A stretch of DNA of 64,000 nt from Ceratodon purpureus (lineage: Eukaryota; Streptophyta; Bryopsida; Pseudoditrichales; Ditrichaceae), in contig CM026426.1 of NCBI GenBank assembly GCA_014871385.1, forward strand, positions 98,296,861 through 98,360,860, written 5' to 3'. A model generated the notes under the pieces. The model did not search any database, was not told the origin of the DNA, and worked only from the letters and a program-made list of their open reading frames with translations. Both the position numbers and the translations under genes were made by a program. This document shows positions 20,574 through 56,591 of this stretch, in pieces. How positions within the stretch are numbered: the first letter of the stretch is position 1; each line of letters begins with the position of its first letter.

Positions 20574-20639
20574 AGAGGAATGAAGCAGCGAATTCTAAGA
20601 AAACAGACTTTTAAAAAAAAACATTAAAAAAAGGCACAA

Positions 20640-21388: not shown

Positions 21389-21392
<4 letters not shown>

Positions 21393-21454
<62 letters not shown>
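21393..21454. repeat. (AT)n microsatellite
   Basis: An alternating AT run of about 62 bases. Confidence 0.98.
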
Positions 21455-21458
<4 letters not shown>

Positions 21459-21552
21459 ATGTATTTCACAGATATTCCAATCATATATATCTTGGATGAA
21501 TTGAATTGTCTGAGCAACATTATTTCATCTCTGGCAACTTCATCATCTCATT

Positions 21553-33310: not shown

Positions 33311-34165
33311 CTAAAAGGAGGATGAGGTAGACGGTGCAACCACACCATTGATACTATCGTTGTCAGAGGACGAGCTATCCGTGTTTGATTCAGCGACTGC
33401 CTGCGAAGGAAACCCGTAATTGTGCAGCCAGCATGGAGGAAACTGCACACTGCACCCACGTCCGCAGCATTCCGGATACATGGCGACCCGTATTGCGAAG
33501 CAGAAAATATGGTAAAAGTGTCTGCACAGGGAAATCTCCACTTCACCTACCGGGAATCCTGTGTTGCACATCTCGCAGCGTCTTCCGACGTCCGGCAACG
33601 GAATTCTCGGAAGATGGATTTGTTTCGACAAGCTCAGCTGTGTGTGTTCATCGTAGTTGTTAAGAGTGTCGACCGCCATACGTCGGTCGGCCTGAAGTTC
33701 TCTGTACTCTTCCTTGAGTTTCTCCAACTCCCTTTGAGCTTCCAGAAGCTTTGCTATGACACAGGACGAGCCCTGAAACCCAAGAAGATCGCGTAAATCG
33801 CGCTCGGCTCGCAATCAGTCGTGATGAAGCTCTAACTGTTTCTCTCTAAGCTCCATCAGATTCGCCCTGATTTCCATTCTCATAGCAGCGTCGCTTGTCA
33901 TGGCATCTATCCTCTCGGCTCGAGTGAAAGCATCCTTCGGTAACGCTGCACAAAGCAAATATCGAGAATGAATATCGCCCAAGATCCCTTTCTCCTCAAG
34001 GATGGCACTGCGCTCTGCCCCTTCTTCCGGCAGCTCAAGGCAATCTAATTTGTATTCTTCACTCAAAATGCGCTCGCTGTTTTGGGCAATTTCAACGCGT
34101 CGACCTGCATCGCTAACTAAATCTGCCTTATGCGCCATAATTGACGCAGTTCGAGAAGGCGGCAT
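33311..34165 (-). pseudogene. Coiled-coil/RING protein 1, one in-frame TGA
   Basis: Frame from ATG 34165 (MPPSRTASIMAHKADLV) to TAG 33311, 284 residues, with one TGA at 33815-33817. The N-terminal two thirds are charged and helical (ERILSEEYKLDCLELPEEG, EAQRELEKLKEEYRELQADR), likely a coiled coil. A RING-type zinc-binding module follows: CEMC, x13, C-R-H-x2-H-x2-C, x10, C-x4-C. A Ser/Asp-rich tail ends the protein. Aligned without gaps to the paralogue at 37724, the TGA falls on an Arg codon, consistent with CGA to TGA. RING proteins commonly act as E3 ubiquitin ligases. A palindrome variant lies 238 bp upstream of the ATG. Confidence 0.65.
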
Positions 34166-37723: not shown

Positions 37724-38482
37724 TCATGGAATCGGGAATGGGAGGTTGCAATCAACATTGCTGCACTCTAGATCTACGGCAACTCGGATTGCGAGGCAGA
37801 ACAAATGGTAGAAGTGCCCGTACGGTGTGCCAATCACTTCGTCTGCCGGAAATCCTGTTCCGCACATCTTGCATCTACGAGTGTCCCCTTCCGCAATGCT
37901 ACTCGGATGAAGAACCCCAGACGAAAGTGTTAACTGCGTGCATTCGCTATATCGGCGTAAAATATCAATGGTAAGGGACTGGTCAGCCTCCTTCTCCTCC
38001 CACTCCTTGCGAAGGATATTGGTTTCACGCTTTGCCTCAAGAACTAAGACAATGACAGAACGGTAAGAATCATACCCATCCATGTTGCGGAGTGTGGACT
38101 CTGCCTGAGCTCGGTCCTCCTTCAACTGTCTCATCTTCTCGCGGAGTCCAATCACGTTGGCCCTTGTCTCGAATCGGACTGCTCGGTCAGCTCCAGTGGA
38201 ACCAATCATGGCTGCCTGCACAACTGCATCTTTTACAGACTCGTAAGAGGGTACAAATCGTGAATGGGTGTCACAAAGAATATGCTCCGCCTAAGCAAGC
38301 GCGTTGACACCACTGCCTACCTCCAGAAGCCAGGGCTCCTCCACTGCAAATTCCTCTTTCAATTTCCTTAACTTCTCCTCTGAGATATCAAGCTTCTACT
38401 TAGCCTCTGATGCAAGCAAATGCTTGTGGTAACAGATGGACGTAATCCTAGAGTAGTGCGTACCAAAAGGGAACACAGCCAT
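37724..38482 (-). pseudogene. Coiled-coil/RING protein 2, two in-frame TAGs
   Basis: ATG 38482 opens MAVFPFGTHYSRITSICY. The frame then passes TAG 38396 and TAG 38291 and ends at TGA 37724, 252 codons. The parts between stops are clearly coding: KLDISEEKLRKLKEEF (coiled coil), then HSRFVPSYESVKDAVVQAAM and FETRANVIGLREK, matching HSRYLL... and MEIRANLMELREK of the paralogue at 33311. The RING-like module reads CKMC-x13-Y-G-H-x2-H-x2-C, so the third zinc ligand, Cys in the paralogue, is Tyr here. The fold is probably damaged. A palindrome variant lies 190 bp upstream. Confidence 0.65.
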
Positions 38483-39312: not shown

Positions 39313-39320
39313 CTCAAATG
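39313..39320 (+). repeat. Target-site duplication, left (CTCAAATG)
   Basis: Exact 8-bp match to 56584-56591 at the other end; 8 bp is the length made by hAT transposases. Confidence 0.9.
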
Positions 39321-39680
39321 CAGGGTTATCACGGACGTCCGAGACGCTCGGAAGTCGGGACGTCCGCGGACGTCCGCCAGCGCCCCATGACGTCCTGTGA
39401 CTAAGGAAAAAATAAAACACCCGCATAGGTTTCACCCCGGAGTGAAACCACACCTTGAACGCGGGCGGGAGAAGCGGCCGTCGCCGCGGAGGGGGGGGGG
39501 CCGTCGGCCGCGACGGGAAGGGGCCGTCCCCAGCGACAGTCCCTTCCTGTTCCCGCAGAGGGGAGGCTTGCCGCGGCCGCGTGGAGGGGGGCCGTCGGCG
39601 GCGACGGCCGTGACAACCCATGATCCGACGGCCCCCCGCTTGACTTACAGCCTCGACGGACGTCCTCCCTTGATTTTTAG
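39321..39680. promoter_or_regulatory. Left subterminal GC-rich block A
   Basis: Contains GGACGTCC palindromes followed by GCCGTCGGC/CGCGGCCGC-type repeats and a G10 run (39491-39500). ORFs on both strands here are artefacts of composition. It lies directly upstream of the transposase TATA box and probably serves as both transposase-binding region and promoter. Confidence 0.7.
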
Positions 39681-39710
39681 GGCTTACCCCGTGGCATTTC
39701 ATGGGATGAG

Positions 39711-39718
39711 TATAAAAG
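39711..39718 (+). promoter_or_regulatory. TATA box of transposase gene
   Basis: TATAAAAG, about 205 bp before the transposase ATG at 39923. Confidence 0.65.
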
Positions 39719-39922
39719 ACCCCTCCTGGAAGTTGGCATTACACTTCTGAATTGTATTCCATGTGCTACTAGTTGCACTAATATACGTGTGTATCTGTTG
39801 CATGGTGAAGGGCGGCGTTCAAAAGTGTGTTGAATTGGAGCTTCTTCGGAGGCTCTAGTTCTCTTGAGGACTTGTTACCCTGATTTTTTGAAGTTTTTCC
39901 GGGCGATCTATCAAGTGCAGCA

Positions 39923-40435
39923 ATGGCGTCTAGAAGTTACTCACCATGGTATACCGAAGTTCATATGATCGATGCGGAGAAGGAGAAGACTGAGATGGTT
40001 CAGTGTATGCTATGCAAGAACACTTTCGCAAAGAGGATTGAGCGGATGCTCAGTCATTTGGGCTATGACAAAGTTGTAGGGGTACGGACTAGTGGTGTAG
40101 GTCGTTGCACTAATTTGTCATTCGCTATACAGTCCTTGTTCAAGAATTGCCGTGGCAAATTCCCCAACGACTCCAGAATATTCATGTCGGAGCAGAGTAC
40201 TTCCCCCGTGACTCGTGGCAATATATCCCCGAGAGTGAACACTCCCATGTTCATGGATGTGGACTCATGCGCTGGATCCCGGGTTTCTACTCCGAAGAAT
40301 GAACCCGTCTTATTGGGTGAGGGTGTACCTTCCATTTCCACTCTTCCGGGGGAAGGTAGTGGACCGTTTCCTCCTTTGAAGGCAAAGAGGCAATCTACCC
40401 TTCAAGAGGCTTCGAAGAGACTCAGAGGCGGGAAT
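39923..40435 (+). CDS. hAT transposase, BED zinc-finger part
   Basis: ATG 39923 (AGCAATGGC context). Residues C28 and C31 (QCMLCKNTF), H45 (RMLSHLG) and C62 (GRCTN) form a BED-type zinc finger, the DNA-binding module of hAT transposases. A low-complexity linker follows, then the conserved lead-in QSTLQEASKRLRGG. The natural continuation (DKAWATCFYENSISFN) is in the next frame, so a one-base frameshift lies near 40430-40445. A programmed shift, recent decay or an assembly error are all possible. The ORF end at 40537 in the original frame is spurious. Confidence 0.8.
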
Positions 40436-42063
40436 GCGACAAAGCATGGGCCACATGTTTTTACGAGAACAGTATCTCGTTTAACATGGCTCGGAGTGCC
40501 TCTTTCAAGGACGCGGTGTCGAAGACGTCCAACATGAAGAGATCATACACACCTCCATCTTTCCACCATCTCCGAACAAATTTACTAGCCCAAGCAAGGA
40601 CTGATTTGGAGACTTCCTTGAATGATAGGATTTTTCCCAGTGTTAGGAAGTACGTGGGAACGTTGGCCCTCGATGGATGGACTTCTGTAAGCAGTCGCTC
40701 TCTAATAAATGCAATGCTGGTATCGCTTGCTGGTGAGCTATTCTTGGGAGCCGTTGACACGAGTGGGAAAGAGAAGGATGCCGTCTTCGTAGCGACCGTC
40801 ATTGAGAAGTTTATCCAACAAGTTGGAGAATATAACATCATTCAAGTATGCTACGATAATGCTCCGGTGATGCTTAATGCCGGAAAGTTGGTCCAAGCAC
40901 TCTATCCATCCATATTTGTCCAAGGATGTGCTGCCCATGCGATGGACCTTTTGTTGGAGGACTGGAGTAAGATGAAGTGGGTGAAGGAGCTCCTAGATCG
41001 GGCTAAGAACTTGGTTAAGTTCATAAAGATAAGGCAAATGCCACTCTCGGTATTTCGAAAGCACGAGGCAAAACTTAGCTTGCTGATGCCTGGTCAGACT
41101 AGGTTTGCATCGCACTACATTATGATTTCGCGTCTTCTGAAGGTTCGAAGAGCAATGGAGCAGAGCGTTGTGGATCCTGACTGGAGAAACTACAAAACGA
41201 AGAAGCCCTTATTTGCCCGTGACAAAGCAAAGATCTCATGCGATGTTAAGAGGGTTGTCTTAGATGACGTTTTCTGGGAGCAATGTGCAAACTTCAAGTG
41301 GATGACGAGTCCCGTTGTATATGCCCTACGAGAGTTTGATGCAAAGGAATTGGCATTGGGTAAAGCCTACGTCGTTCTCCGCAACCTTGAGAAGCATGTT
41401 CTCTCTTTACGCCATGAGCCCTTCAAATTAGACTCTGGCAATGCTGATTTGTGCGAGGACTCATTCTATGAGCGTAAAGCCATGGTCACATCACCCTTAC
41501 AGTGTGCTGCTGCGCTTCTAAACCCTTATCTGATTGACGATGAGGACCTTCACAATGATACTGATGCGATGGCATCGGCGAAGGAGGTCTTGTTGTCGAT
41601 GGCTCCTCCGACATTGAAGGAAGTGGTCATTGAAGAGTTCTTTGCATTTCGTGAAGCTTATCCTCCGTTTCGTGATGTACGTGACTCCTCTAAGTCACAA
41701 TTGCCGCCTTCTGGTTGGTGGGATATATACGGATCCGCTGGTAAATTCATTTCCCCAATTGCAAAAAGGATTTTAGCTCAGCCCCTGTCTTCTTCTTCAT
41801 GCGAGCGGAATTGGAGTAGCTACTCCTTTGTCCACGACAGGAAGCAAAACCGTTTACTTCCGGAAAGGGCTAATGACCTCGTGTTTGTGTATACAAATTC
41901 CAAGATAATTTCCCAGTCCAAGTTGAGTGGCTTAGGGAGGTTCTATGGGGAGTTGGAGGGGAAGGAGGATCCAAAGGCCGTGGAAACCGAGGACGTTGAC
42001 TACTCTAGTGAGTCTGATGTTGATGTACCCTTCGACGATCTATCAATTGACCCCCCCCATTGA
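40360..42063 (+). CDS. hAT transposase, catalytic core and dimerisation part
   Basis: The coding signal starts near 40435 (DKAWATCFYENSISFNMARS); the frame is open from 40360. Counting from the ATG at 40486, LALDGWTS holds D63 and VCYDNAPVM holds D124, candidate catalytic acids. GCAAHAMDLLLEDW (about 147-160) and QTRFASHYIMISRLL are typical DUF659 features. SSSCERNWSSYSFVHDRKQNRL near residue 440 is the hATC dimerisation motif. The enzyme cuts and pastes the element and makes 8-bp duplications. The frame ends at TGA 42063 just after a run of eight C (42048-42055), where one base shifts it out of the tail frame. Confidence 0.88.
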   Translation, partial: WTVSSFEGKEAIYPSRGFEETQRRECDKAWATCFYENSISFNMARSASFKDAVSKTSNMKRSYTPPSFHHLRTNLLAQARTDLETSLNDRIFPSVRKYVGTLALDGWTSVSSRSLINAMLVSLAGELFLGAVDTSGKEKDAVFVATVIEKFIQQVGEYNIIQVCYDNAPVMLNAGKLVQALYPSIFVQGCAAHAMDLLLEDWSKMKWVKELLDRAKNLVKFIKIRQMPLSVFRKHEAKLSLLMPGQTRFASHYIMISRLLKVRRAMEQSVVDPDWRNYKTKKPLFARDKAKISCDVKRVVLDDVFWEQCANFKWMTSPVVYALREFDAKELALGKAYVVLRNLEKHVLSLRHEPFKLDSGNADLCEDSFYERKAMVTSPLQCAAALLNPYLIDDEDLHNDTDAMASAKEVLLSMAPPTLKEVVIEEFFAFREAYPPFRDVRDSSKSQLPPSGWWDIYGSAGKFISPIAKRILAQPLSSSSCERNWSSYSFVHDRKQNRLLPERANDLVFVYTNSKIISQSKLSGLGRFYGELEGKEDPKAVETEDVDYSSESDVDVPFDDLSIDPPH

Positions 42064-42913
42064 CAACCCAGTCGACGACCTCGAGGTTTCACCAAAAGGA
42101 AAATCCCGTTGTTCTCCTGCGCCGATGGAGCGTGGTTTCGAGTATGATGATGTCGAAGAAGAAGGTACCAACGAGGAGGATACGATTCATCTTGCCTCTT
42201 TTCTGAATGGAGACGGTTTACTAAACAGTGATAAGATTCTGCGGGGAGGATCCTCTCATACTACCGTGGGTTTGGTCGTACCAAAGAAAGAGGAAGACCT
42301 CACCCTTGATACTTCTAAGGTTGTTTCTCCAAACTTCAACCGCCTGAAGGAGGAAATGGTTCCACCCTCTACAAAGGACGATGTGCCCGTACCCGTATCG
42401 GGTGCGTCTTGGACATTGTTTGGAACCGCAAAGACTAGGGTCCAAGTTGGTGGGTTCGAATCGTCCACGAGGTTGGTTGAGTTGTCTAAAAAAATAAAGG
42501 CAGATGCTAAGGCTGCTGAAGTAGCGGAGAAATGTAGGAAGAGAGTGGTCCGAACCCGACAAGCGGACCGGGACATTCTCTCTACTGATGATGGACTTCC
42601 AATTGGGCATCTCTTTGGGCCGAAGTTGGCTTTGGGAAAACCGGATATATTTCCTGAAAAACCCCCTGCTAGAGCCATGTCCAAGCAAAAGGCTGTAGAC
42701 AAGACTCAGAAGGTGTTGCCTTTCAATCCTGGCAAGCCAAAAACTCCTTTGGATGTTGCGAATGGCCCAAAGAAATTCATGAACCCATTCGAGTCAAAGA
42801 AGAAGACTAAGGGGAGGATGAAGAAGGTACGCGAGAGCGATGGCGATGACGAATACGATTCTTCCGGTCCTAGTGGGGCCGAAGTGAAGGACGACAGCGA
42901 TTATGTGGCATGA
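42048..42913 (+). CDS. hAT transposase, C-terminal extension
   Basis: Reads in frame with the transposase if one C of the eight-C run is ignored (SIDPP then IDNPVDDLEVSPKGKSRC). It adds about 285 residues to TGA 42913. The tail is unlike standard hAT proteins: acidic (YDDVEEEGTNEEDTIH), then basic helices (LSKKIKADAKAAEVAEKCRKR, VVRTRQADRD), Lys/Pro-rich stretches with KTQKVLPFNPGKPKTPL and SKKKTKGRMKKVRE, and a final acidic patch (DGDDEYDSS). Nuclear localisation and nucleic-acid or chromatin contact are plausible. It is open over 800 bases with protein-like composition, so I regard it as real and part of the transposase gene. Confidence 0.65.
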
Positions 42914-43368
42914 TTGCGCACGATAGTTAGAAGGCAGCATTTCCAGTGCACCACCCTACAATGCCACTCTTTTATGAATGTCCATTTCTAGAAACCATTA
43001 TCATATCATATACATTTAAGCGGTGGTGCTTGCCTCCTCAATATTGTCTTCCACGTTGTGTACTGATGTTTCCTTTGATTGTACTTCTCGCAATTTCTTT
43101 CTTGTAATGAATATACAAAATCTACATATGAAGTTCGATGCATCTAAGTATTAACAATTCTTTCAACACAAATACAACTCCGAGAAAACATAAATGAAAT
43201 TGTATTAAAACCAGAGGTAATTTTTGCAAGTACATATAGAGGTAGAGTAAAGTCCATACATCCGGCTACGCAACCAATATATATACTGCTCCAAATACGA
43301 CTATCACCCAATGTCTTATCACATTAACAGAAGTAATGCGGGTACGATGTCCAACGTATATACCCTAC
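42914..43368. other. Convergent 3' region, transposase/RING
   Basis: AT-rich spacer between two stop codons facing each other. It contains polyadenylation-like TTGTAATGAATATAC (+) and, on the other strand, AATTTCATTTATG-type sequence. No gene. Confidence 0.55.
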
Positions 43369-46300
43369 TCAACGTTCACTGTTTGCATTTGACCTCCGAG
43401 CAACGCGTCGCTGGCTTGGTCGTGTAATCGTACCCCGCGATCGATATTCTTCTTGCACTGCTACCACTTCTCGACGTTTATCTTCCCCCCATTCAGGGTC
43501 ATCTTCATAAGGGGCGTCCCGATTGCGCTTCTTGGAATTTTTCCCGTCCCACAACTCCTTTGCCTTCTCAATCTTGGCTACTGTTTCTTGCACAATCTTC
43601 TCAATCCTAGCGCGTGACCAACGAGAGGAATTATCCTCCGCACGAAGTGCCCTTCTCCAGTCGCAAACTATTTTCTGAAGAGCATCGTCAGACTTCTTAA
43701 TGATCACCCAGTAGTCTAGGTCCAAATATTTGAAGGATTCCTCTGTAAAAGTGCGACGATGGCGAATGGCTTCTTCTAGTTTGCTCAATACAAGTGCCCT
43801 CCCGACCAAGGTCTTGTCGTACATCTTGTACTCATCAAGTTGGCCATAGTCCCGTTCTACTTCTCTTCTTTTACCGTCGGCATCTACCACAACTTCCGGT
43901 TTTGGAAATCGGAAGAAGCGATTGCCATGTACACTCCAATGTCCACCGAAGTTCCTACAAAAAAATTCTCGCTCCTTGGCATCCGGAATTTCACGTGCCC
44001 TCATCTCCACCTCATAGTCGTGTGTCATCCATGAAAGATCGTCCAATTCGGCATTGCCAGCCGTAGATAGTTGGTGAGTCATTGTCTCCGGGTTCCAAGC
44101 AAGTGATTTGCCCCAATCATAATAATTCAGCTCTTTCTTAGGTAGTTGGTCTAGTGGTAAATTCCACCGATCAAACTCATGCCCAGGCGGCATTACGTGT
44201 TGTAGTCCCAGCATCTCGTAAAAACGTGAACTAATTGGGGAGCGACACATAACACACTGTTTGTTGTTTAAAGCAGCCTTCGCGATGCAGGTTATGTGGA
44301 ACTTGTGATTACAATTTCCCATCTCAAAGGCCCCTTCCGGCACAAAATATTGTTGACAGATGGGACACGTCTCCTTCGAATATTCCTCCGACGGTTTGCA
44401 GGTATGGATAACCACACGTTTCGATTCATCCAAATGAGATGATAGTACATCGTACGGCATCCACCCCTCCTCGACCTCTAGCGCCCAGTCAATGACCCCT
44501 TCTTTATTTTTTGAACTATGTAATGTGCGCTCCATCATTTCTCCTACATCGCGCCATATCGTGATTTTTGTAGCATCCTCGCCGCCCTTGGCTGCTGCCT
44601 CGTTATACTTCTGTAAAGATGATTGGATAGCTTCTTCGACATCCATAGAAGTAATTGCACATTTCTTCATATCCTGTTGTGCTTTAGAGACTATTGTCTC
44701 CTTATCTCGTAGTTTGTGGACCCAACCAAGCCATGATAATGCCCTTGTGGAACATGGTGTATCATCTACCATCGGTATAGTGGTCTTCAGCTTCTCCAGT
44801 TCTGTACAGGCCTCGTCTCTTTCCCTTCTAGCCACCTCCAAATCCCGTAAAAGAATGTCTACTTCTTTTGAATCATCCATAGGCCCTTTTCCTCTATCCT
44901 CATGTCTTGGTGTTGCTTGGCTAGAGCCAATGTCCAATGGAACTGGACCAGATGTCCTTTTAGACTTTTGAGACGCCATCCCTTGTGTGGCGCCATCTCC
45001 ACTTTTATTTGAGAATTTAGAAAGGCCAAGGTCATCGGAATCCTCATCATCGCTCAGTACTTCAATGACACGATCCTTTTCGTCCACCTTCACCACTTCC
45101 TTCTTCACCCTAGGCCTCACTTCTTCTATTTTGCTTTTCTCCTTATCTATCGGGTGGTACTTTTCGCACTCTTCCAATTGTGCACTCCAACTCTTCTTCA
45201 CATTGTCCAACCTTTCTGTCAATTTCTCGATTTGTTGCGTTGCCTCCATTAATTCCTTACTCAGCGCCACGTTCTCTTCGCTTAATTGCACACAGTCTTC
45301 CAGAAGAGGCTTAGTGGAAGATACCAAAGTCTCAAAGCCGAGGGCACCATGTATCATGCCCGGAGTGATACTTCCAAATGCATGAGCCATGTTTATGAGT
45401 TTTGGTGCCATAGAGCCTAATACGGAAGCCCCTTCTTTCAAGGTGTGAGCAATCTTCAACACATCATGAATTTGTTGCACTTCCTCCGTGGTTTTCCTGC
45501 ATCGCCTCCCTCCGTGGTATTCTCTAAGCCCCCACGTTGTTCATCAGAGCACACCTCCGTCCATTTGATGCTAAAATCTAGTAACTCCTTCAATGATTCG
45601 TTGTTCGGCATCGACTTCACCATCTCCATAATCTCCAAAATGGAATGAACTGCATCCTTTGTGCTATCCTCTTCGGTAGGCACTTGTACTATTGCCAAGG
45701 AACTTGGACCATCATCCACTGAACGAGGGTTGGAGCATCCAGCTACCGCAGCCGTAGGATGTGTTGAACAGTCATTGTCCACCTCAACTTCCACCTCATC
45801 CACGGCTGCCTTGCCCTTCGTATCGTTGGAAGATTTCACCGTGATTCCCAGGTCTGCTCTAGGAAGAACAGGGACATTGGTTTCTGTGGCAGTAGGGAAC
45901 ATCGTTGAGATCACATTGGCAATGGCAACGGCTTCCTTTCCTCTTGACGGTGTGGAGTTTCATTCTGTAAATTCTTTACTTCATTCTTCGGGAAACTCTT
46001 CAGAGGTGGCCACTGCCCCTTTCCGAACTCCGCTACGACCTTCTTCGCTTGCAAAGGATCGATCAGATATAAATCCCGAATGTCTCTTATCATCCATCCA
46101 ATTTGCAATGGCCACTCTTTTGTAGTGGGGTACGTACACCAACTAATCTTCCGCTTCAATATTAGCTCGGCATACACCATACTACAAATGGTATAATTGA
46201 AATGGCCTTTGCTAGGCTAACGTTGCCCAAACATAGTAGTCCAGACCTCATATGCTCGATGCAAGAAATGGTCATCCATACATGACCAGGGCTTGCAGGT

Positions 46301-46536
46301 AAAACTCCGTGTGTTCAAACCGTGTTGTTCTCGGGGCCACAACTTATCAATGTGATACATCTTCACATATGTCTTGCACTCCCTGAAAGTCTAGTAAATG
46401 TCCCCCACAGATTCCCAGCCTTCTTCCGCTATGATGTTTTTGTTGTCTAGGATCTCCCACGAAAAGTTGTGGCATGCTCCCTTCGGCCTGTTCTTCTTCC
46501 CGGTTCCTCCAATCTCATCATGTTGAGGATCCGCCA
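43369..46536 (-). pseudogene. Cargo coiled-coil/RING protein, ~1,000 codons, interrupted
   Basis: ATG 46536 (MADPQHDEIGGTGKKNRPKG). The first frame runs to TGA 45911 through TAGs at 46391 and 46217; this part holds FRECKTYVKMYHIDKLW, shared with the cargo gene at 51188. A one-base shift near 45950 leads to the 45914-45510 frame. A 26-bp insertion between CCTCCGTGGT repeats (45483, 45509) leads to the last 703-codon frame. That frame has coiled coils (EENVALSKELMEATQQIEKL), acidic and Ser-rich regions, then a RING domain CPIC-x14-C-N-H-x2-H-x2-C-x10-C-x2-C (about residues 371-412), then a conserved-looking Trp-rich C-terminus with basic end. Probably an E3-like factor. The 3' part is intact enough to be expressed on its own. 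Confidence 0.75.
45483..45518. repeat. 10-bp direct repeat bounding 26-bp insertion
   Basis: CCTCCGTGGT at 45483-45492 and 45509-45518. Removing one repeat and the 16 bases between would put the two RING-gene frames in register. Confidence 0.7.
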
Positions 46537-46641
46537 TAGTAACCTCGTTTTAAACAAAAACATTATGGTTCTGTTTTAAAGAAAACAAGGAGTTGATAAA
46601 TGATGGTTTACAAAATAACGAATACAAAAAAATCAAAAACT

Positions 46642-46662
46642 CCCCCCCCCCCCCCCCCCCCC
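46642..46662 (+). repeat. C21 homopolymer
   Basis: A run of 21 C on the + strand, so a G-run in the leader of the RING transcript. One of four long C tracts in the element (also 47255-47280, 50335-50351, 55749-55763). Confidence 0.95.
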
Positions 46663-46779
46663 AACAATAAAAATGGACTCCCATCTCCTCACCCTCTAGT
46701 ACCAACAAGCTCCCAAGTGAATTGGGAAACTGTAGCAATAGGAGGGGGACTATTGAGGAGAGTGAAGTGAGGAAGAGGG

Positions 46780-47254
46780 AGACGGCCGTCGCCATATATG
46801 GCGATGGCCCTCAACCTTACGGCCGTCCCTCCGAGCCTAGGGCCGTCGGCCCCCGATCCTACGGCCGTGGCCAATGGCCGTCGTCCCGAACTTGACGACG
46901 GCCGTTGGGGGGCGTCGGGTCGGGGCCATGGTGACGGCCGCGGAGACAGCTCCCCAAGGGGCGGCTGGCGGCCGACCGATCGTGGCCATTTCCGCGGCCG
47001 ACCGCGCGGGGACGGCCGCGGAGACGGCCCTAGAGACGGCCCTAGAGACGGCCCCGTCAGCGACGGCCCGCGGCCGCCCGATCGCAGCCGTCTTTAAGGC
47101 GACGGCCGTTCGATCACGGCCGTGGTCGAGGGGCCGTCCCCGCGGACGGCCCCTCGCGGAGACGACCCACGGCCGCGGGGACGAGGCCGTCACGGCCGCG
47201 GGGACGAGGCCGTCACGGCCGCGGGGACGAGGCCGTCACGGCCGCGGGAAACTT
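46780..47254. promoter_or_regulatory. CGGCCG-dense block B
   Basis: Dozens of (A/C)CGGCCG(C/T) motifs in 475 bp, many as GACGGCC or GGGGACGAGGCCGTCACGGC-type tandem units (three copies near 47175-47245). Extremely rich in CG and CHG sites. All frames are open but the translations are Arg/Gly/Pro strings, so not genes. It lies upstream of the RING gene on the minus strand. Confidence 0.75.
46791..46802 (-). promoter_or_regulatory. TATA box in dyad, RING gene
   Basis: GCCATATATGGC, a palindrome with ATATAT at its centre, at the edge of block B and about 255 bp upstream of the RING gene ATG. Confidence 0.55.
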
Positions 47255-47280
47255 CCCCCCCCCCCCCCCCCCCCCCCCCC
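47255..47280 (+). repeat. C26 homopolymer
   Basis: The longest C tract; it marks the sharp border between the GC block and the AT-rich spacer. Confidence 0.95.
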
Positions 47281-47284
47281 TTTT

Positions 47285-50180
47285 ATTTTAAAAAAAATTG
47301 GAAAAACATATAATGCTACAACTTCCAACCACATATTAAACTAAACCTGTTAATTTCTTTCACCAATTAAAATCAGAACAGCAGTTAATGTTAACATGAA
47401 TTTAAAGACTTCATGGTATGCAAACCATCTAAATTCGTCAACGAGTCATTATTCCGTACACTCCCCCCAACTTAATGTATGTGTCATTTATTGGAATCAT
47501 TCGTTTTATTATTTTTTTCCATATATTTCATTCAGTCTACCATCCCACTCCAGAAGTTCTCTGCTAAAATCCAAACCACTTAAACCCGTTTTAGGAATTG
47601 TAATCTTAATAGTCCTCCATCTTCATATTCTCCGCTTTGATTCGTTTTTATTTTAAAAACAGAATTACTTCTACTTCTCTTTTACTATACCGCTTCATCT
47701 TCTAAATTTAATTTGGGATACCATATCTTCATGTCTTTAACGTTCCTCCCTCTATACAATTTCCACTCTCGAACCCGTTTTTCATTTACTTATTCTTTAT
47801 TTTCCTCTATGTTTTTTCCCCTCTATGTTATGCCCTTTTTTTATACGTGTAATTCGTCTAATCTACCACTGTAACCCTTGAAGTTCCTGAAATGTTACTG
47901 TTGAATTTCTTTCTCTTATATCATTTCGAACATTCCTGTTTCAATTTATTTCCTCCATAACCCATGTTAAATTATATTTTACTAATTCTAGCATTCTTCC
48001 ACCACACGTATTCTCCATATACTAAAATTCCTTAGATCTTGAATATGTATTTATATTTGGTTCTTCCACATGCTCCTGAGTCCTCCATCATTCGAGCTTG
48101 TTTTTTCTTATTTCTCTTTCCTTCTGCTACCCATTCCACTACTCTTTTACCTTGATTTTAATTTTTTGAAGGTGATATTCATCCCCCTCGTTACATTCAT
48201 GGCCTTTCAAACATTTTATTACCATAATATTTAAATCCGGTCATTGTTTCATTGTATATCTCTACATCTGCCACTCTTTCAATATACCTCTTCAATTACG
48301 TATAAAATCGCAACCCTCAAGCAACCACACTTTATTTTGGTATTTAAATATTCCTTTACAATTTCTTGCACTCCTCCATTTGTTAAATTTTATACCTCCC
48401 ATTGCACAACTCTATTACCCTACTGCTTTAGTTTTTATTGACTAGTGTACCCCTCTTTCATATATATGTTTTGAACTCCCCATGTATCACTACGTCATGG
48501 CCGTCGTCTATTTATTTTAATAATTATAATTTCGTTACTTTCCCTCTCTACCTCTATTTTTTTATTATAATATTTCGATGGTTCACTCATTTGTTTACTT
48601 ATGAATATACTTCTACTTCACAGTCTCCCCCATTATAGCAAAATATAATTTTTTAATATTCCTCTCCTCGTCGTTATAGTTCTAATATTCACATCCATCC
48701 TCAACCTTCTTATTCTTTGTTTTGATGATTAATTTAATTACTTACTATTTTGAAACAATACCACCCCACCAAACTTTTTTCATCAGTATTCTTAGTATCC
48801 TAATAATATATTTATTTCAAAAATTATGTTCCATCAATATACGTTCTCGTGTAATAATTTTATTTCCATACCTGTAGTTCCAAGAATTTCACGTCATGCC
48901 TTTTTACTTTTTCCTTGGTACACTATATGTCTCTATGAATTATCGTATTTGTTTAATTTTCTCATTGCGTCATTAGTAAGTGATTACTTTTGTACGTATA
49001 TACTATACAAGTTGGAATCCAATTTTATATTTCTATTTACGTTAAACTGTATGTGTATAAACATATATTGCAATAGTATATACTGTAAATGTCTTTTTTA
49101 CTTTATTTATTTTATTTCATATAAGTTACAACTCAATTCTGGGCGTGAGAAACTAGAATTGTTTATAAAAACAATGATTTCAATTTTATTCGTTCACAAA
49201 TTTCCAATATTCAATGACAATTGAATGTTTTTTTTTTTTAATTTATTTTTTATTATTATTATCCCTCTTTCATCTTATAATGTGAACTACTATTTCTGTT
49301 TTTTTAATATCATCAGAGTACTAGGATATGGGAGTGTGTAAAATAAAAGACATAAAAGTGCAGAAAGAGTTTTTATATTTCATATAACTCTAAACTGGGC
49401 GTGAGAAATTAGAATTGGTTATAAAAACATTGATTTGAGTTTTATTCCTCCCTTAATTTCCATTATTCCAAGACAATTGAATGTTTTTTTTTTTTTTTAA
49501 ATTTATTATTATCTCCAGTTTATCTCATAATCTAAACTACTATTTATGTTTTTATTTTTGATTTTATCAAAATACTAAAGCACAGGAGTATGTAAAATTA
49601 AAGAAATAAAAGTGGGAGAAAACATTCCATAAAAAATTAGAGTAAAAGAATCTATATAAAAATTTTCATTATGTACCACTAATTGAGAAGAAACTTGAAA
49701 TATTTTTCTAAGAGATTTATGAAACGGTAAACCGGTAAAATATAAATGCAAATCTCTTAACTATGTAAACATAATTTGCACCGCATGAAAAACCAAGTGT
49801 GTACATGAATTTATGCTGTGAATTACTTTTAATGCATTTTCACCGCGATGTTCCTTTTATCATCTCGTTGTTGACATTTTCTCTTCCGATTCGTTATTAT
49901 AAAATGTTCATTTATTACCATATGCTAAAACATGATTACCTTGGTTTCTTTAAATGAAAATCGGTACAAAATGTTTTAGTATACCCACAATGTTTACGGC
50001 TCTTTCCATTCAATAGAATATATATTCTTCTTCATAAACGTGTTCACATTATTTGTAGATTCTAGGGGGTTATCGACCCCCAAAGAACCAAAATATCACA
50101 TAGTTCATTGGATCCCAATTTTAAACGTCGACTTCACCTCCCCGATCACAGGATCTTCAGGACATTCTCCACAATATCCG
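47285..50180. other. G-poor AT-rich central spacer
   Basis: About 2.9 kb without a gene between the two gene pairs. From 47,400 to about 49,100 the + strand is strikingly poor in G and rich in T and C. Short hydrophobic ORFs here (for example 48826-49224) follow from that composition. A diverged tandem duplication occupies 49110-49620. Confidence 0.7.
49110..49620. repeat. ~250-bp tandem duplication, two diverged copies
   Basis: GGGCGTGAGAAA(C/T)TAGAATTG at 49142 and 49398 starts matching stretches that share ACAATTGAATGTTTTTTTT, AA(A/C)TACTATTT(C/A)TGTTTTT and GTAAAAT(A/T)AAAGA. Confidence 0.75.
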
Positions 50181-50334
50181 GAATATGTCTGAATTTTCCA
50201 TTTTGGGGCAGATACGCTATCCAAACAATCCCAAGTGGGATTGTTTGGGACGAGAAGGAGGAGGGAGTATAGGGGGGGGAGAGGAGGAGAGGAGAGGAGA
50301 GAAAACACAAGAGGAGGGGAGTTCCTTGGACCCT

Positions 50335-50351
50335 CCCCCCCCCCCCCCCCC
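50335..50351 (+). repeat. C17 homopolymer
   Basis: C tract at the outer border of GC block C, preceded by a purine-rich GGAGAGGAGAGGAGAG tract (50270-50330). Confidence 0.95.
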
Positions 50352-50830
50352 TCTCCACGGCCATCCACTTGGTCGGCCGTGGCCGTCCGAGCGGACGGGG
50401 GGCCTGTCGCCCACGGCCGTCAAAACTTCTCCGCCAAGAAGATCCAATGGCTGCAGGCAACGGCCCTCGACCGCGGGGTCGGCCGCGGCCGTCCACGGGG
50501 ACGGCCGTTGTCGACCACGCGGCTCCAGCCTTCGACCGCGGGGTGGCCCACGGCCATCATCGCGAGTTGGGCCAAGGCCGACCATGCGTTCAGGGGTCCG
50601 TCCGCGCGGACGGCCGTCCGCGTGGTCGGCCGTCCTGACCGCGGGGCGGCGGTCCACCGACGCACCCTTTGGAGAGCGGTCGCGGCCGCAGGACCGGTCG
50701 CGACCGTAATTCTCAACGGCCGCGACCGGTGCCGCGACGGTCCGCTTACTGCCGTCAGATTCTCCATGGGCCGAGATCCAACGGCCGTAGGGGGGCCGCC
50801 GTTTGACCTAATTGGCCGTCTAGGGGTTCG
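50352..50830. promoter_or_regulatory. CGGCCG-dense block C
   Basis: Same repeat type as block B (CGGCCG, GACGGCCGT, CCGCGGGG), upstream of the plus-strand Arg-rich gene. The overlapping ORFs on both strands are compositional. Confidence 0.75.
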
Positions 50831-50851
50831 GGCCAGCATAAAAGGCTGGCC
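50831..50851 (+). promoter_or_regulatory. TATA box in dyad, Arg-rich gene
   Basis: GGCCAGC-ATAAAAG-GCTGGCC: a TATA-like core enclosed by perfect 7-bp inverted arms, about 340 bp upstream of ATG 51188. The RING gene's TATA is also inside a dyad. Confidence 0.6.
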
Positions 50852-51187
50852 CTGCATCCTTTTTTTCCACTTGGGTGCTCGTGCTACATGTGCTGGATTT
50901 ACTTCAGCTCAGTTGCATTCCTCCAAGCTTTTTCTACTTCCCCACGGGTTACCGTGGGATTGTGTTCAGGGTTATCAGCACCGTTTGTTGGTTATAATGA
51001 AACCAATAAACTAGTGCTTCATACCTACGGTTTTTTGGCAGGAGTTCGAGGCTTTGTTTTGGTCCTTATGCACTAGATATATACGAGATTAAATCAACTT
51101 TTATACGGTGGGAAGAAGTTACAGCCATTGTTACAAGGTTGGTTCGATACACGGTTTTTATAGGTACTCGCTTACCCGACTTTCGCC

Positions 51188-53319
51188 ATGCCTCGTAACG
51201 ACCGGGGAGGATCCTCCACTCCAAAAAAGAAACACCCCTTGGATCCATACGCTACGAATGACCCTGATTGCGTAGCGGAGTTTGGATGGGAGGGGGAACC
51301 ATCACCATGGCGGATGGTAACTTGCAAGGAATATGTAAAGATGAAGCACCTCATGAAGTTGATCCCAGTACATCTACGTACCGAGGCTGCGGAGAAACAG
51401 GCAACACGGGGTGAGATCAGGGTCGACAATTGTGAAAGTAATCATTTCACTATTTGATATAACAAGATATTTCAGGCAGCACAAATCTAGAACTCCCGAC
51501 CTCATATTATGTTGTATTCGAATATGGCAATGGTGTGGGCGGAGATAGTCTTACACAAGAGAGTCGACTGGCGCACAATCTCGGGCCAGAGGACAAATAA
51601 AATGAACAGAGAAAGCATGGATCTTGACACAGCCTAGGTTGGACATAGCGATTGTCCTCCACTACATATTTCAAACTGTCGGAGTCCACTAGCACAAGAT
51701 GATGGAATACAAACTCTAGTCGTCGAATATAATGATGAAGAACAGGAGAGACGTCGTTTAAGCTATGATGATGATGACAACTATCGAGGACGTCGCTCAA
51801 ACAAAAATCCCAGGAATCGCAGAGGGCATCGTGGCAGAGAGTTATCGCGTACCAACCATTAGGAGTATGGACAATGCTCTGCCCACGGGGGACACCGTTC
51901 GCGAGATCGTCAAGATGTGGGACCCCACAAACGAGGCTATGGCTACGGGGAACCCGAAGGAGCTGATTCATCCTTTGACTTCACGGATGATGTGTATGGA
52001 CCGTATGGGGGACGACCTTGGCCGGATTATGCAACGGGATCAAGATACTATACAGACGGCTGGTCGGAATTACCGAGTCCTCCAAGGAGTGCTAGTCCGC
52101 GCCATGGAACACCTGCGAGAGATCATTACGGAACTCCCCCTCCATACGCAATATTTCCTCCACCTCTAGGTTATCACAACGACGGTTTAGCGGGGAAAAC
52201 CGCAACGTACTTCATCCCGATGACAGAGTACCACCTCCTCCTTTTGGATACGCTCCCGGTCCAGTTGTAAGAGATAGCCATTTTGAGGAAGAATTAGAGT
52301 TGCAGCGGACAAGGCAAAATTATGTACTATAGATGGAGAATCATGCGTTTCACCTTAGAGGGGATAATCGAAGATTGATGGAGGAGAGAGAGAGACTTTT
52401 GAGAGCCTCGACAAATTATACAGGGCACGGGCCACAAGAAACGTACGATCGGGGAGGTCCAAGCGAACTCCCCAATTATGGGAACTGTTATCATCCATAT
52501 GACTACAATGGACTAGGGTGTACGGGAGACTATTAGAATGGGGTGCATCGAGGACGTCGCTCAAACAAAAATCCCAGGAATCGCAGTGGTCATCGTGGCA
52601 GAGAGTCATCGCGTACCAACCATGAGGAGTATGGACAATGCTCTGCCCACGGGGGACACCGTTCGCTAGATCGTCAGGACATGGGACCCCACGAACAAGG
52701 CTATGGCCACGGGGAACCGGAAGGAGCTGATTTACCCTTTGACTTTGCGGATGGTGCGTATGGACCCTATGGGGGACGACCGTGGCCAGATTATGCAACA
52801 GGATCAAGATACTTCAGTAACTATGATGACGAATGGTCGAAAATACCAAGTCCTTCAAGGAGTGCTAGTCCGCGCCATCGAACACCTGCGAGAGATCATT
52901 ACGGAACTCTCCTTCCATACGCAATATTTCCTCCACCTCTAAGTTATCACAACAACGCTACTGATCACAATAGCGGGGAAAACCGCAACGTACTTTATCC
53001 CGATGACAGAGTACCACCTCCTCCTTTTGGATACCCTCTCGGTCGAGTTGTAAGAGATAGCTATTTTGAGGAAATATTAGAGTTGGAGCGGACAAGGCAA
53101 AATTATGTACTACAGATGGAGAATCATGCATTTCACCTTAGATGGGATAATCAAAGATTGATGGAGGAGAGAGAGAGACTATTGAGAGCCTCCACAAATT
53201 ATACGGGGCACGGGCCACAAGAAACGTATGATCGGAGAGGTCCAAGCGAACTCCCCAATGATGGGAACTATTATCATCCATATGACTACAATGGATTAGG
53301 ATGGAGGGGAGACTATTAG
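51188..53319 (+). CDS. Cargo Arg/Gly/Tyr/Pro-rich protein, multi-exon
   Basis: Exon 1 (51188-51410) encodes MPRNDRGGSSTPKKKHP and CKEYVKMKHLMKL, the latter resembling CKTYVKMYHIDKL of the RING cargo. A GTGAGA donor at 51411 and TTTCAG acceptor at 51475 join in frame to NLELPTSYYVVFEYGNG. A frameshift near 51590 and TAG 51635 follow, then EEQERRRLSYDDDDNYRGRRS and a ~250-residue domain present twice. The second, intact copy (52543-53319) has HRGRRSNKNPRNRSGHRGRE, FDFADGAYGPYGGRPWPDYA, proline-rich YAIFPPPL, and a coiled-coil-like LELERTRQNYVLQMENHAF. It looks like a low-complexity RNA-binding or condensate-forming protein. Function not known. Confidence 0.6.
51783..52546 (+). repeat. Tandem duplication, copy 1 (decayed)
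   Basis: Begins ATCGAGGACGTCGCTCAAAC and ends GAATGGGGTGC. It has TAG at 51860-51862 where copy 2 has GAG, a short deletion and frame change near 52180, and a TAG at the STAGATGGAG position (52330). Confidence 0.85.
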
Positions 53320-53330
53320 AATAGGGTGCA
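52547..53330 (+). repeat. Tandem duplication, copy 2 (open)
   Basis: About 90% identical to copy 1 and open throughout, to TAG 53317-53319. The junction is seamless: copy 1 ends at the same GGGTGC with which copy 2 ends. Confidence 0.85.
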
Positions 53331-54141
53331 TGGTAGTACTTTCTACAGCATCGGAGCGTACCGAGTCTTTAATGTGGACATCGCATATTACAAATTTACA
53401 GCGTAAAGTAAAAGATGCAAGCATAGTGTGTACGTAGTTTGTAGTTTTGTAGGTGGAGGTTTAAGATGTACGGACTTAAGAAAATTGGCACGTGCCACAT
53501 ATTGCAAATGGAATAGATAGAATTAGTGGAATAGAGTGTAGTTGTGTTGTCTTCTATACTGTAGTTGTCTTGACATTTTAAATGAATATGTCTTTGTAAT
53601 CTTCTCTTGATGGTCTTCTAACTGCACGTTGTTATCACTGTCACTATTTTTTAAATGACAACTTACCATTGACATGGGTTACGACTAGTTGAATATTATG
53701 AATCTCAAGAGAAGTATGCACAATAATTTTCAAAAATATTTTTTGCTAAATTAATAAGAATAACGTGAATGATTCTTTTCGAGGGATGCATATTTATATT
53801 TAAGCTATTTGTTTGTATCGGGGATTATGAGCAATCGTGTTATGCCGCCTTTACGATTTCGTCTTCACGAAAAGAAGTTTAGTATGCGCTTGCCAATATT
53901 TCTAAGACTAAAACTGCAAACTAAGACCAATCTCTGTACACGAGACCAGATTTGAACCAAATGCAAATAAACTTTATAAACAAAATATTGACCAATGTAC
54001 AAAAATTGAGATTCCAACATCTCATAATAAAATAGAGTCTAAATATAACTATTCACTACTAAGAGCTATGCCCGCCGTCCGGTAAGAAAAAAAACATTAT
54101 GAAATTATAGGAATACGGAAAGGTAGATATGTCTCTCCATA
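53331..54141. other. Convergent 3' region, Arg-rich/kinase
   Basis: AT-rich, with no gene. Both neighbouring genes end into it. Confidence 0.55.
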
Positions 54142-55617
54142 TTAGTAACCCACGCGGTAGTGCTCCTTGGGAGTGGGCCAGTTGTGTGTATCTCTGAAAC
54201 GGTTAATAAGATGTCCGAGTCCACCAATCGTTCCTTTGTTGTTTTGGCAAACTCTCTCAAGGTAACCTTCGAAAACCATTGCGAGTTCTCCAATATTCTT
54301 GAAATGGCGTGTTTCTACTGGCTCCGCTTCATGGTATGCCGTGCACATGTTGCCCTTGTTGATCTTTGCCGCAACCTTCGCGGCTGCGAAATCCTCCGAT
54401 GCAACCGTCAAATCTGGAATGATTTGAATATCTTGGTTTTCCTTGTGTACGTATACCACGCGAGGATCCACCCAGTATCGCCTCCTCATAGTCTCCTCCA
54501 TGTGATGGACACTCTCAAAAACCCAAGGCAACCTTCTGTTCTCTAGTGTCTTCGTCATCAAGCCCCAATCACAAACCCCGATGTAGATCTTGGACTCATC
54601 TTCCGGAAAGTGAAGTAGGATGTTGTCTGCTGACAAGTCATTGTGAAGATAACCGTATTTGTGCACAGCATCTATGATGTTACACAATGCCCAAGTAAGC
54701 TCTGTACGCTTACTTCGGAAAAGTTGGAGACGCTTCCCTAGAATCGGACTGTCCTCTGGATTCCTATTGAAGATGTAGTGGATAGGGAGGTCACCCGGGG
54801 CCTCATTGTTCCTCTGTAGCATGGCTCGAAGGGTCCCACCGTTCCACCAGTACATGAATCCCACATGTTCCAACTGATGAATGGCCATGAAGCGGATGAC
54901 ACCAGGATGGAGAATCCTTATCGCAAGAGATTCGTTGTTGTGGTCCACACGTGCCAAATCCGGCCTCATAGACCAATTGAGCGGCCGTTTCTTAGCAAAA
55001 TCCCAGAATGGTGGGATTTCCGGGTTTCCCTCAATAAGAATTCTACGTATCGTAGCATAACCACCTCTCTGAACTTCCTTGTCCAAGTAATAGAAAATTG
55101 CGTAGTCTGCCAAGATAGTCAAATGCCGTCTACGTAAGTCGGCCGCCGTCTCCATCCTAATCGGAGAATTCCACCATTTTACAGAGATCCGTCGATGCTT
55201 TCTTGAGCTCAGGGGCGCCATTAGTCTCTGGAAGCAATCTGCCTTTGAAATAACATCCTTGAAGGCCTCGACTCCCCCCCTTTGGTCCCTTGCATACTTA
55301 GACACAACGTCACGAGCATTCCATAACGCATCATGTGCACGCTGTGACACAAATTGAAGGTAACCGGGCTTCTGTCTCTCCGAATCCCAGTGCGGATGTA
55401 TAAAACAATCCATAATCTTTACCTCCATCTCCGACTTGAATTTCTTGGGCCCATCTTCTTCATACCGAATGTAACAACTGTTCAATGAAACAAGGGTGTT
55501 CTCCTGGTAAAATTCCACGATGAATGCTGTAATATAATCCTTGCAACGTAAGCTCGGTTTGTCATTGTATTTGTCCGCCCGTTTCCCCACATACTTTTGC
55601 TTCTTGTTCTTCGGCAT
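54142..55617 (-). CDS. Cargo protein-kinase-like protein, 491 aa
   Basis: Intact, ATG 55617 (MPKNKKQKYVGKRADK) to TAA 54142. An apparent extension to 55641 starts at TTG and is not needed. The N-terminal half is unassigned (CKDYITAFIVEFYQ, HPHWDSERQKPGYLQFVSQR, KWWNSPIRMETAADLRRRH). The C-terminal half has kinase landmarks: HLEHVGFMYWW-like hinge region, YGYLHNDLSADNILLHF (HxDxxxxN catalytic loop near residue 325), and YIGVCDWGLMTK, with DWG in place of DFG. A glycine-rich loop is not obvious. The APE/activation segment is unusual, so it may be an atypical kinase or pseudokinase. It is the least damaged gene in the element, which suggests selection or recent arrival. Confidence 0.75.
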   Translation of the reverse strand: MPKNKKQKYVGKRADKYNDKPSLRCKDYITAFIVEFYQENTLVSLNSCYIRYEEDGPKKFKSEMEVKIMDCFIHPHWDSERQKPGYLQFVSQRAHDALWNARDVVSKYARDQRGGVEAFKDVISKADCFQRLMAPLSSRKHRRISVKWWNSPIRMETAADLRRRHLTILADYAIFYYLDKEVQRGGYATIRRILIEGNPEIPPFWDFAKKRPLNWSMRPDLARVDHNNESLAIRILHPGVIRFMAIHQLEHVGFMYWWNGGTLRAMLQRNNEAPGDLPIHYIFNRNPEDSPILGKRLQLFRSKRTELTWALCNIIDAVHKYGYLHNDLSADNILLHFPEDESKIYIGVCDWGLMTKTLENRRLPWVFESVHHMEETMRRRYWVDPRVVYVHKENQDIQIIPDLTVASEDFAAAKVAAKINKGNMCTAYHEAEPVETRHFKNIGELAMVFEGYLERVCQNNKGTIGGLGHLINRFRDTHNWPTPKEHYRVGY

Positions 55618-55748
55618 CGTGGAAAGCCTTGAAGGCTTCAAGCAATTGAAAACCTAACTCCAAATAAACCCTTAATTCCCACAAAGATTAATCACAGCAA
55701 TACAAATCCGAAGGGTATTGAAAAAAATCGTTTAAAAGTTCGAAAAGT

Positions 55749-55763
55749 CCCCCCCCCCCCCCC
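55749..55763 (+). repeat. C15 homopolymer
   Basis: C tract in the probable leader of the kinase gene (a G run in the mRNA), mirroring the C21 tract in the RING gene leader. Confidence 0.95.
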
Positions 55764-55892
55764 TTCTTAAATAAGAGACCCCTTTCCTCCCGGTGAGAAC
55801 GACCAACGGAGAAGGAGCAAATCCCCCACCAGTAGCAATCGACCCCACGCGAAATGGGAGAAAAAAGTTAAAAAATGAAGAGGCGGCTTCCT

Positions 55893-55900
55893 CTTATATA
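55893..55900 (-). promoter_or_regulatory. TATA box of kinase gene
   Basis: TATATAAG on the minus strand, about 275 bp upstream of ATG 55617 and directly beside block D. Confidence 0.65.
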
Positions 55901-55904
55901 GAAG

Positions 55905-56583
55905 GCCGACCTCTCGGCTGTCCTCGCGGCCGTCCGATCAGACGGTCGGGTCGGGCCATGGCGCTACATGGCCGTCGCCCGACGCGGCCGTCTCCGCGGT
56001 CGGCCGCGTCTCCAGGCGATCGCCCACGCGGACGGCCCTCCACGGCCGACCATGCCGGCCGCGGGAAGTCCGATCCCATGGCCGTCCCTGAGGCCGATCG
56101 CGGAGACGGCCGCCCGATCGGACGGCCCTCCCAGGCCGACCATGGCGGCCGCGGGATCCGACGGCCGGCCGCGGCGATCGGACGGCGGGAACGATCCGAG
56201 CCGTCGGACCCTGCGGCCGTCCGCGTGGCCGTTCCCGCGGTCGGCCACGGCGACGGCCGGAGGGTCCGACGGCTGAGGAGGGCTGCCCACTTCCCACGGC
56301 CCGCGATGAGCCTGAACGGCCGCATCTTGGCCGTCGGATCGAGGTGCGGCCGTCGCTAGCGACCCCACGGCGGTCTTTGGGGCCGTCCCCGCGATCCGAC
56401 GGCCGAGATGGGGCGTGGTGGCGGGATCGGCCAATCAGACGGTTGGGAGATTTTTGACCCCCCCCGGGGTCGCAAAAATATTACCGCGACGTTATTCTTG
56501 AGCGTTGGGGACGCCACGTCCGGGACGGGGACGTCCGAGTCGGATGTCCGGAGCCGGGTCGGACGTCTATTTGAACAACTCTG
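55905..56583. promoter_or_regulatory. CGGCCG-dense block D and right end
   Basis: CGGCCG repeats (55905-56420) are followed by the right subterminal zone with GGACGTCC-type motifs and the terminal inverted repeat. The six overlapping ORFs are compositional artefacts. Confidence 0.75.
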
Positions 56584-56591
56584 CTCAAATG
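56584..56591 (+). repeat. Target-site duplication, right (CTCAAATG)
   Basis: Matches 39313-39320 exactly. Confidence 0.9.

Follow-up and report, generated by a model that had tools for sequence, protein, structure and literature searches.

A 17,263-bp DNA transposon of the hAT superfamily, carrying a transposase gene and three further genes, occupies positions 39,321-56,583 of the 64-kb stretch of the Ceratodon purpureus genome analysed here (C6:98296861-98360860 of the 362.5-Mb assembly, hereafter the window), and belongs to a repeated family in which this whole span behaves as one unit, as the earlier note on this DNA had proposed from its letters. We regard the anatomy of the element and its status as a single unit as practically certain, and it is very probably a recently active cut-and-paste transposon of which the window holds a decayed copy; cut-and-paste by the transposase is well established for the hAT superfamily. 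An intact, recently spread 17-kb hAT element with three conserved helper genes indicates that complex elements of several genes can arise within this superfamily in a plant. Because a single genome contains intact copies that are nearly identical to one another, decayed ones, a paralogue of the empty site and a sister family, the function of the helpers is open to direct testing.

Ends, copies and movement of the element

A scan of the window for CAGRG...CYCTG pairs at most 40 kb apart with identical flanking 8-mers returned a single pair, that of the element (Table 1). The identical 8-bp flanks, inverted ends and subterminal palindromes described in the earlier note were all recovered: CTCAAATG is present on both sides, the ends read CAGGGTTATCA and CAGAGTTGTTC, with CAGGGTTGTCAC and CAGGGTTGTTC as the family forms obtained from other copies, which are short inverted ends of the CAGRG type of hAT elements, and clusters of GACGTC adjoin both outer ends. 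Single GACGTC words are also found internally, four in the window copy and three in an intact copy on C8 (16,586 bp, with TGAAAAAA on both sides), and the five occurrences of GGACGTCC in the window (39333, 39358, 39368, 39658 and 56529) all fall within the element.

The genome was searched with single proteins, and the best candidates alone were scored (82 of 1,257 first-look candidates for the transposase, 44 of 1,581 for the RING protein, 86 of 1,115 for the Arg-rich protein and 87 of 1,115 for the kinase-like protein), so that all genome copy counts are lower bounds. For a 488-bp query from the left end, 40 of 404 candidates were scored, and these gave 56 matches. All seven copies fetched were collinear end to end with the window element, two of them with nested inserts, and the size of the element without such inserts was ~16.5-17.3 kb. 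Perfect and mutually different 8-bp duplications flanked five of the first set of eight copies (the window copy included), the remaining three consisting of one with a 7/8-base duplication, one without and one with its right end not located. Six autosomal copies were tried as well, and the four with both ends in hand had perfect duplications, the left end of the other two lying outside the fetched stretch. The 8-bp duplications expected of a hAT element were hence perfect in 9/14 copies, matched at 7/8 bases in one and absent in one.

Of the 82 transposase loci, 23 had all four genes within 20 kb and in one common order, and a further 23 had three of them; the other 36 were not judgeable, since the best candidates alone were scored. 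Convergent transposase-kinase pairs 8-45 kb apart numbered 49 (82 vs 87 places), most of which (42) were spaced by 13-16 kb, whereas the orientation controls yielded 1 and 2 pairs, and 36 of the 44 RING genes lay 2.9 kb from a scored transposase. Twelve of these 44 RING copies, including the query, were 100% identical (a rounded value, with slightly different bit scores), which indicates that the spread was recent.

A 600-base query made by joining the window flanks identified an empty-site paralogue at C6:87717715-87718135, which aligned as one block over query positions 7-438; this block spans the junction, contains small gaps and is 86% identical. The element is absent there and the 8-mer is present once with one base different; the final 162 query bases were unaligned. 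The comparison was thus made within the same genome, and the whole span reads as one insertion. Both outcomes named in the earlier note as grounds for rejecting its proposal were examined: the C8 copy and the fetched copies share the ends together with the four genes, and the ends do not belong to separate nested elements.

Table 1. Features of the element in positions of the 64-kb window, with strand where one applies
Feature	Position	Strand	Observation
Left target site duplication, CTCAAATG	39313-39320		Single copy at empty-site paralogue, one base different
Left terminal inverted repeat, CAGGGTTATCA (family form CAGGGTTGTCAC)	39321-39331	+	End comparison with other copies
Left subterminal GACGTC cluster, 4 sites	39333-39395		
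GGCCGTCC island 1, upstream of transposase gene	39476-39633		
hAT transposase gene	39923-42913	+	DUF659 5.5e-33, hATC 1.9e-9; 82 scored copies genome-wide
Domain X - coiled-coil-like - RING protein gene	43369-46537	-	RING_2 1.8e-7; 44 scored copies
RING-H2 finger	44242-44370	-	Open reading frame (ORF) residues 371-413
GGCCGTCC island 2, upstream of RING gene	46782-47243		
A+T-rich spacer between the two halves	47300-50100		Collinear in other copies
GGCCGTCC island 3, upstream of Arg-rich gene	50357-50819		
Domain X - Arg/Gly/Tyr/Pro-rich protein gene	51188-53319	+	86 scored copies
Kinase-like gene, open 491-aa (amino acid) frame from ATG	54142-55617	-	87 scored copies
GGCCGTCC island 4, upstream of kinase-like gene	55928-56404		
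Right subterminal GACGTC sites	56519-56567		2 exact in window copy, 4 in C8 copy
Right terminal inverted repeat, inward CAGAGTTGTTC (family form CAGGGTTGTTC)	56573-56583	-	End comparison with other copies
Right target site duplication, CTCAAATG	56584-56591		

The four genes and their upstream islands

The C8 copy contains four intact, intronless frames, encoding a transposase of 994 aa, a RING protein of 1,056 aa, an Arg/Gly/Tyr-rich protein of 500 aa and a kinase-like protein of 491 aa, which are laid out as two convergent pairs, with transposase facing RING gene followed by Arg-rich facing kinase gene. The window copy is decayed, with the kinase-like frame alone being open: its transposase gene shifts frame at about 40.43 and 42.05 kb, its RING gene has stops and frame changes, and its Arg-rich gene has a ~770-bp internal duplication in addition to stops and frame changes (the Arg/Gly/Tyr/Pro richness was judged by eye). 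Within the spacer, ~0.4-0.9 kb from 48004 onward is absent in six of the seven other copies. The use of TAG as a sense codon, considered as two stops seemed aligned in the RING and Arg-rich genes, was rejected on the basis of the C8 copy, which lacks stops in these frames, and several other GC-rich ORFs in the islands were taken for chance frames.

The BED/DUF659/hATC transposase reported in the earlier note was recovered in its DUF659 and hATC domains (Table 1); the BED-type finger gave a partial match that did not reach the Pfam cut-off, with E 0.015 for the window copy and 0.056 for the C8 copy. In the C8 copy, hATC (1.5e-10) and DUF659 (6.8e-36) were both above their curated cut-offs, as expected of a hAT transposase. 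The motifs ALDGWTS, CYDNAP and SCERNWS, candidates for the catalytic D-D-E residues, were in place by eye; hAT transposases of known structure gave weak matches (E 0.14-0.2), and a tail of ~340 aa extends beyond the hATC domain in the C8 copy. The kinase-like protein of the window copy scored 23.6 bits with PK_Tyr_Ser-Thr (cut-off 23.1) and below the cut-off with Pkinase, and that of the C8 copy was below the cut-off with both. Comparison of the window kinase with the PDB gave weak kinase matches (best E 0.0065), and its AlphaFold model, made from one sequence, was unusable (mean pLDDT, predicted local distance difference test, 33.5). No relatives of the transposase, kinase or RING protein were found in viral contigs, and a search of GTDB genomes with the kinase alignment gave 69 pattern matches, with no relative among them. 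The RING and Arg-rich proteins are homologous to each other over their N-terminal ~140 residues (score 121, with a maximum of 64 in 2,000 shuffles), here called domain X; the N-termini of the kinase and transposase gave no match of this type.

Sites of GGCCGT/ACGGCC are concentrated in four islands, one ahead of each gene, and exactly four islands were present in 9/9 copies, an island being defined as five or more sites merged within 200 bp. The most common 8-mer of the C8 islands was GGCCGTCC, with 58 occurrences on both strands vs 1.5 expected under a first-order model. In the transposase and kinase genes, TATA-like words stood in the stretch that separates the island from the start codon; those of the RING gene were on the margin of its island, and those of the Arg-rich gene just 110 bp ahead of the ATG. 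The islands are accordingly described here as putative promoters of the four genes. Coding CpG sites showed more C-to-T change than other C sites in six copies (0.079 vs 0.043 in the window copy), and the observed/expected CpG ratio of the islands was 0.99-1.36 in the six copies compared, which would fit with unmethylated islands. In the window copy, long C runs stand beside the islands at 46641, 47255, 50337 and 55749.

Selection was assessed as the ratio of nonsynonymous to synonymous substitution (dN/dS) with the C8 copy as reference and 300 context-matched neutral simulations, using the window copy, C6_98.4 and C6_79.6 as diverged copies; the C12 and C4 copies of the element, with nested inserts and some dN/dS values that look misaligned, were left out of the simulations. 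For the three diverged copies, dN/dS was 0.29-0.37 for the transposase, 0.49-0.51 for the RING gene, 0.32-0.42 for the Arg-rich gene and 0.51-0.56 for the kinase gene. Values as low were seen in 0-1 of 300 simulations for the first three genes, which shows purifying selection on them relative to these diverged copies. The kinase frame had 0, 0 and 2 stops in the same copies, vs 5.1, 3.8 and 6.5 expected.

A sister hAT family and the role of the extra genes

A genome search for DUF659, in which 150 of 903 candidates were scored, identified a second group of hAT elements, whose open frames are long and whose transposase (1,081 aa in its C4 copy) was 34% identical to the element transposase over 674 aa. 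In this C4 copy a gene for domain X and a RING finger lies downstream of the transposase gene on the same strand, and in a C8 copy of the sister family the domain X-RING gene is intact (1,013 aa) and followed by a 644-aa kinase above the Pfam Pkinase cut-off, with a DUF659 match on the same strand as the RING gene. Sister and element proteins aligned with scores of 1055 (transposase), 229 (RING protein) and 293 (kinase), where 500 shuffles reached at most 70, 69 and 63, respectively; the kinases were 22% identical over 479 aa (E 8e-29), and the RING region matched at E 4e-16. The sister kinase is repeated (69 scored copies), and 39 sister transposase-kinase pairs in order were separated by 8-45 kb (by 12-14 kb in 27 cases), vs 1 and 0 pairs in controls; this pairing used 92 of the 150 DUF659 matches, the 58 that by eye belonged to or resembled the first family being left out. 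RING and kinase genes hence accompany two deeply split hAT families. Both element and sister kinases have retained the catalytic-loop D and N and the DWG aspartate, and the MKV lysine is present in the sister kinase with no clear equivalent in that of the element (all by eye), so the latter may be inactive or atypical for a kinase. The sister kinase itself had no match in the PDB at 0.01 and none in phages.

The earlier note had called the three extra genes cargo. They are indeed mobilised with the element, but the label fits poorly: since they form a fixed set, share an upstream island architecture and include two with homologues in a diverged sister family, they in all likelihood serve the element as accessory genes and are not passengers. 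VANDAL elements are Mutator-type transposons, and we know of no RING protein or kinase in the VANDAL/VANC system. In Arabidopsis, VANC proteins encoded by VANDAL elements bind rapidly diverging noncoding repeats of the element and remove silencing (PMC10398659), and this would be the closest working parallel, proposed as such only, in that an element protein acts on noncoding repeats of its own element; the islands and domain X are candidates for a VANC-type system. In the proposed mechanism, the hAT transposase would cut at the CAGGG ends, perhaps via recognition of the nearby GACGTC clusters, the islands would drive expression of the four genes, and domain X would recognise the islands. Functioning as an E3 ubiquitin ligase, the RING protein would, like the Arg-rich protein, act at the element's own promoters, and together with the kinase these two might counter host silencing, keep the element expressed or license transposition. 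An anti-silencing role of the helpers is a tentative proposal. It is likewise conceivable, if rather doubtful, that a giant plant hAT lineage has kept an accessory module of a domain X-RING ubiquitin ligase and a kinase across at least two deeply diverged families for overriding silencing or licensing transposition, with the domain X-Arg/Gly/Tyr protein and GGCCGTCC promoter islands added in one family. If true, this would be a ubiquitin- and kinase-based counterpart of VANC, by which 17-kb cut-and-paste elements could thrive and load a sex chromosome.

Several results weigh against the overall account of the element and its accessory genes given here. The kinase gene was weakly below neutral in the diverged copies (26, 6 and 28 of 300 simulations as low) and gave 48, 62 and 37 of 300 in closer copies; weak or non-significant values were also obtained for the RING gene in three closer copies (67, 74 and 93 of 300) and the Arg-rich gene in two (13 and 61 of 300), and the transposase gave 0, 0 and 48 of 300 in three closer copies, the last of these being likewise weak or non-significant. 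Domain X had no match in Pfam and chance matches in the PDB (best E 1.1), so that DNA binding by it is a guess. The sister family has no GGCCGT islands, with milder enriched words such as GTTGCGG instead, its gene orientation differs from that of the element, and no Arg-rich gene was present in the part of it that was read. The transposase tails of the two families did not match (score 48 vs a shuffle maximum of 78), and the ends of the sister family were not found, with a left boundary common to two copies but no duplication and no right end. Within the element's own family, the C12 copy is the one without an 8-bp duplication.

Alternative explanations concern the islands, the origin of the extra genes and the unity of the element. 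Transposases of hAT elements such as Ac and Hermes bind short subterminal repeats, and two of the four islands are near the ends, hence the islands might be transposase-binding subterminal repeats duplicated internally and unrelated to the accessory proteins; we consider this possible yet not probable, as the other two islands are internal, adjoin gene starts and are as site-rich as the outer ones, and the word clustered at both ends is GACGTC, not GGCCGTCC. The extra genes could also have been captured from the host as cargo that travels passively, as proposed for ToxhAT-like elements. Large cargo-bearing hAT-type elements do occur in fungi (ToxhAT, PMC6737239), the kinase dN/dS is near neutral and a host ancestor of the extra genes is possible, but this origin is improbable given the single gene order at 23 of the 82 scored transposase loci, the four islands in 9/9 copies, the domain X common to two of the extra genes, and the RING and kinase homologues beside a transposase just 34% identical.

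The window span might further represent two separate or nested hAT elements, one with the transposase and RING genes and one with the Arg-rich and kinase genes, with outer ends resembling those of one element. The halves are each bounded by islands and separated by the A+T-rich spacer, and an exact 11-bp copy of the left end, without matching duplication, is found at 50967-50977, upstream of the Arg-rich gene. Such an arrangement is nevertheless scarcely credible: in several copies a single pair of ends encloses the complete span, with duplications that are specific to the locus, GACGTC clusters were seen at the outer ends only, and the 8-mer ahead of 50967 has one further occurrence in the window, which does not follow a matching end. 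A nested or composite element is accordingly contradicted by the collinear copies and the duplications flanking the whole span; an ancient fusion of two elements is possible.

Relation to known elements, genomic distribution and neighbouring features

Usual autonomous hAT elements are small and carry a transposase. The present element resembles the hAT superfamily (Ac, Tam3, Hermes and the plant DUF659 group) in its DUF659 and hATC domains, short CAGGG-type ends and 8-bp duplications, and differs from it in its size of 16.5-17.3 kb, its four intronless genes, the ~340-aa transposase tail and the fixed accessory set. Starship-like elements have a tyrosine-recombinase captain and variable cargo, and were rejected as an assignment on the absence of such a Pfam match in the four proteins and on the constant set and order of genes at 23 loci. 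Lanisha, the authors of which reportedly work on Ceratodon, and other EnSpm-like (CMCT) elements are ruled out by the 8-bp duplications and the hATC/DUF659 transposase. Among the papers listed in our literature searches there was no description of a multi-gene giant hAT element in plants, and an earlier one is possible in Repbase or in the genome paper (reportedly Carey et al. 2021).

Lanisha (Repbase Reports 2020, via PMC12730594) shares with our element that it is a DNA transposon, and differs in being EnSpm-like with 2-5 bp duplications. ToxhAT of fungi (14 kb; PMC6737239) is likewise large, hAT-associated and accompanied by several other genes, but its terminal inverted repeats are 74 bp, its genes are different and elsewhere in those fungal genomes it is mostly present as fragments, whereas many full-length copies are present here. 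The fungal hAT7 elements with TET/JBP genes and IS3EU elements with alpha-kinase genes (PMC12730594) are also DNA transposons with added genes, in which TET/JBP may counter DNA methylation and IS3EU pairs its transposase with an alpha-kinase in opposite orientation; unlike our element, they carry other enzymes, the kinase case is in another superfamily, and hAT7 makes 7-bp duplications. In the moss Physcomitrella, no hAT sequences came to light in a survey of 2018 (PMC6027215), and mosses may therefore hold an overlooked hAT radiation.

The U and V chromosomes of Ceratodon purpureus measure 110.5 and 112.2 Mb according to a review (PMC9273592), although the two values may belong to them the other way round. 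C6, at 110,524,308 bp or 30% of the assembly, is probably a sex chromosome, because its size fits these published sizes. It carries 52/87 scored copies of the kinase gene, about twofold above expectation, as well as 50/86 of the Arg-rich gene, 49/82 of the transposase gene, 21/44 of the RING gene and 42/69 of the sister kinase gene, these shares being approximate as scoring favours similarity to the query. Stop-bearing frames are more common on C6, with 25/52 vs 6/35 elsewhere for the kinase gene and 29/50 vs 10/36 for the Arg-rich gene.

Just outside the element, the minus strand encodes two coiled-coil-like proteins at 33311-33814 and 37724-38221, which are paralogues (score 258, shuffle maximum 53) and have a C-x2-C...H motif of RING-like type; they are related to a 393-aa protein downstream of the sister kinase (scores 118 and 75, shuffle maximum 52) and possibly represent genes of yet another mobile element. 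DUF659 matches at C6:36376246, C10:16975122 and C13:445946 scored 162-167 bits, far above both hAT groups, and could be other elements or domesticated genes. Elsewhere in the window, an A+T-rich block (24-40% G+C) at 9500-23000 contains 31-bp repeats and repeated modules ~2.2 kb apart, two adjacent minisatellites with 24-bp and 21-bp units are located at 1318-1713, and a Ty3-type gag gene (Retrotrans_gag 2.6e-10) is present at 62720-63448.

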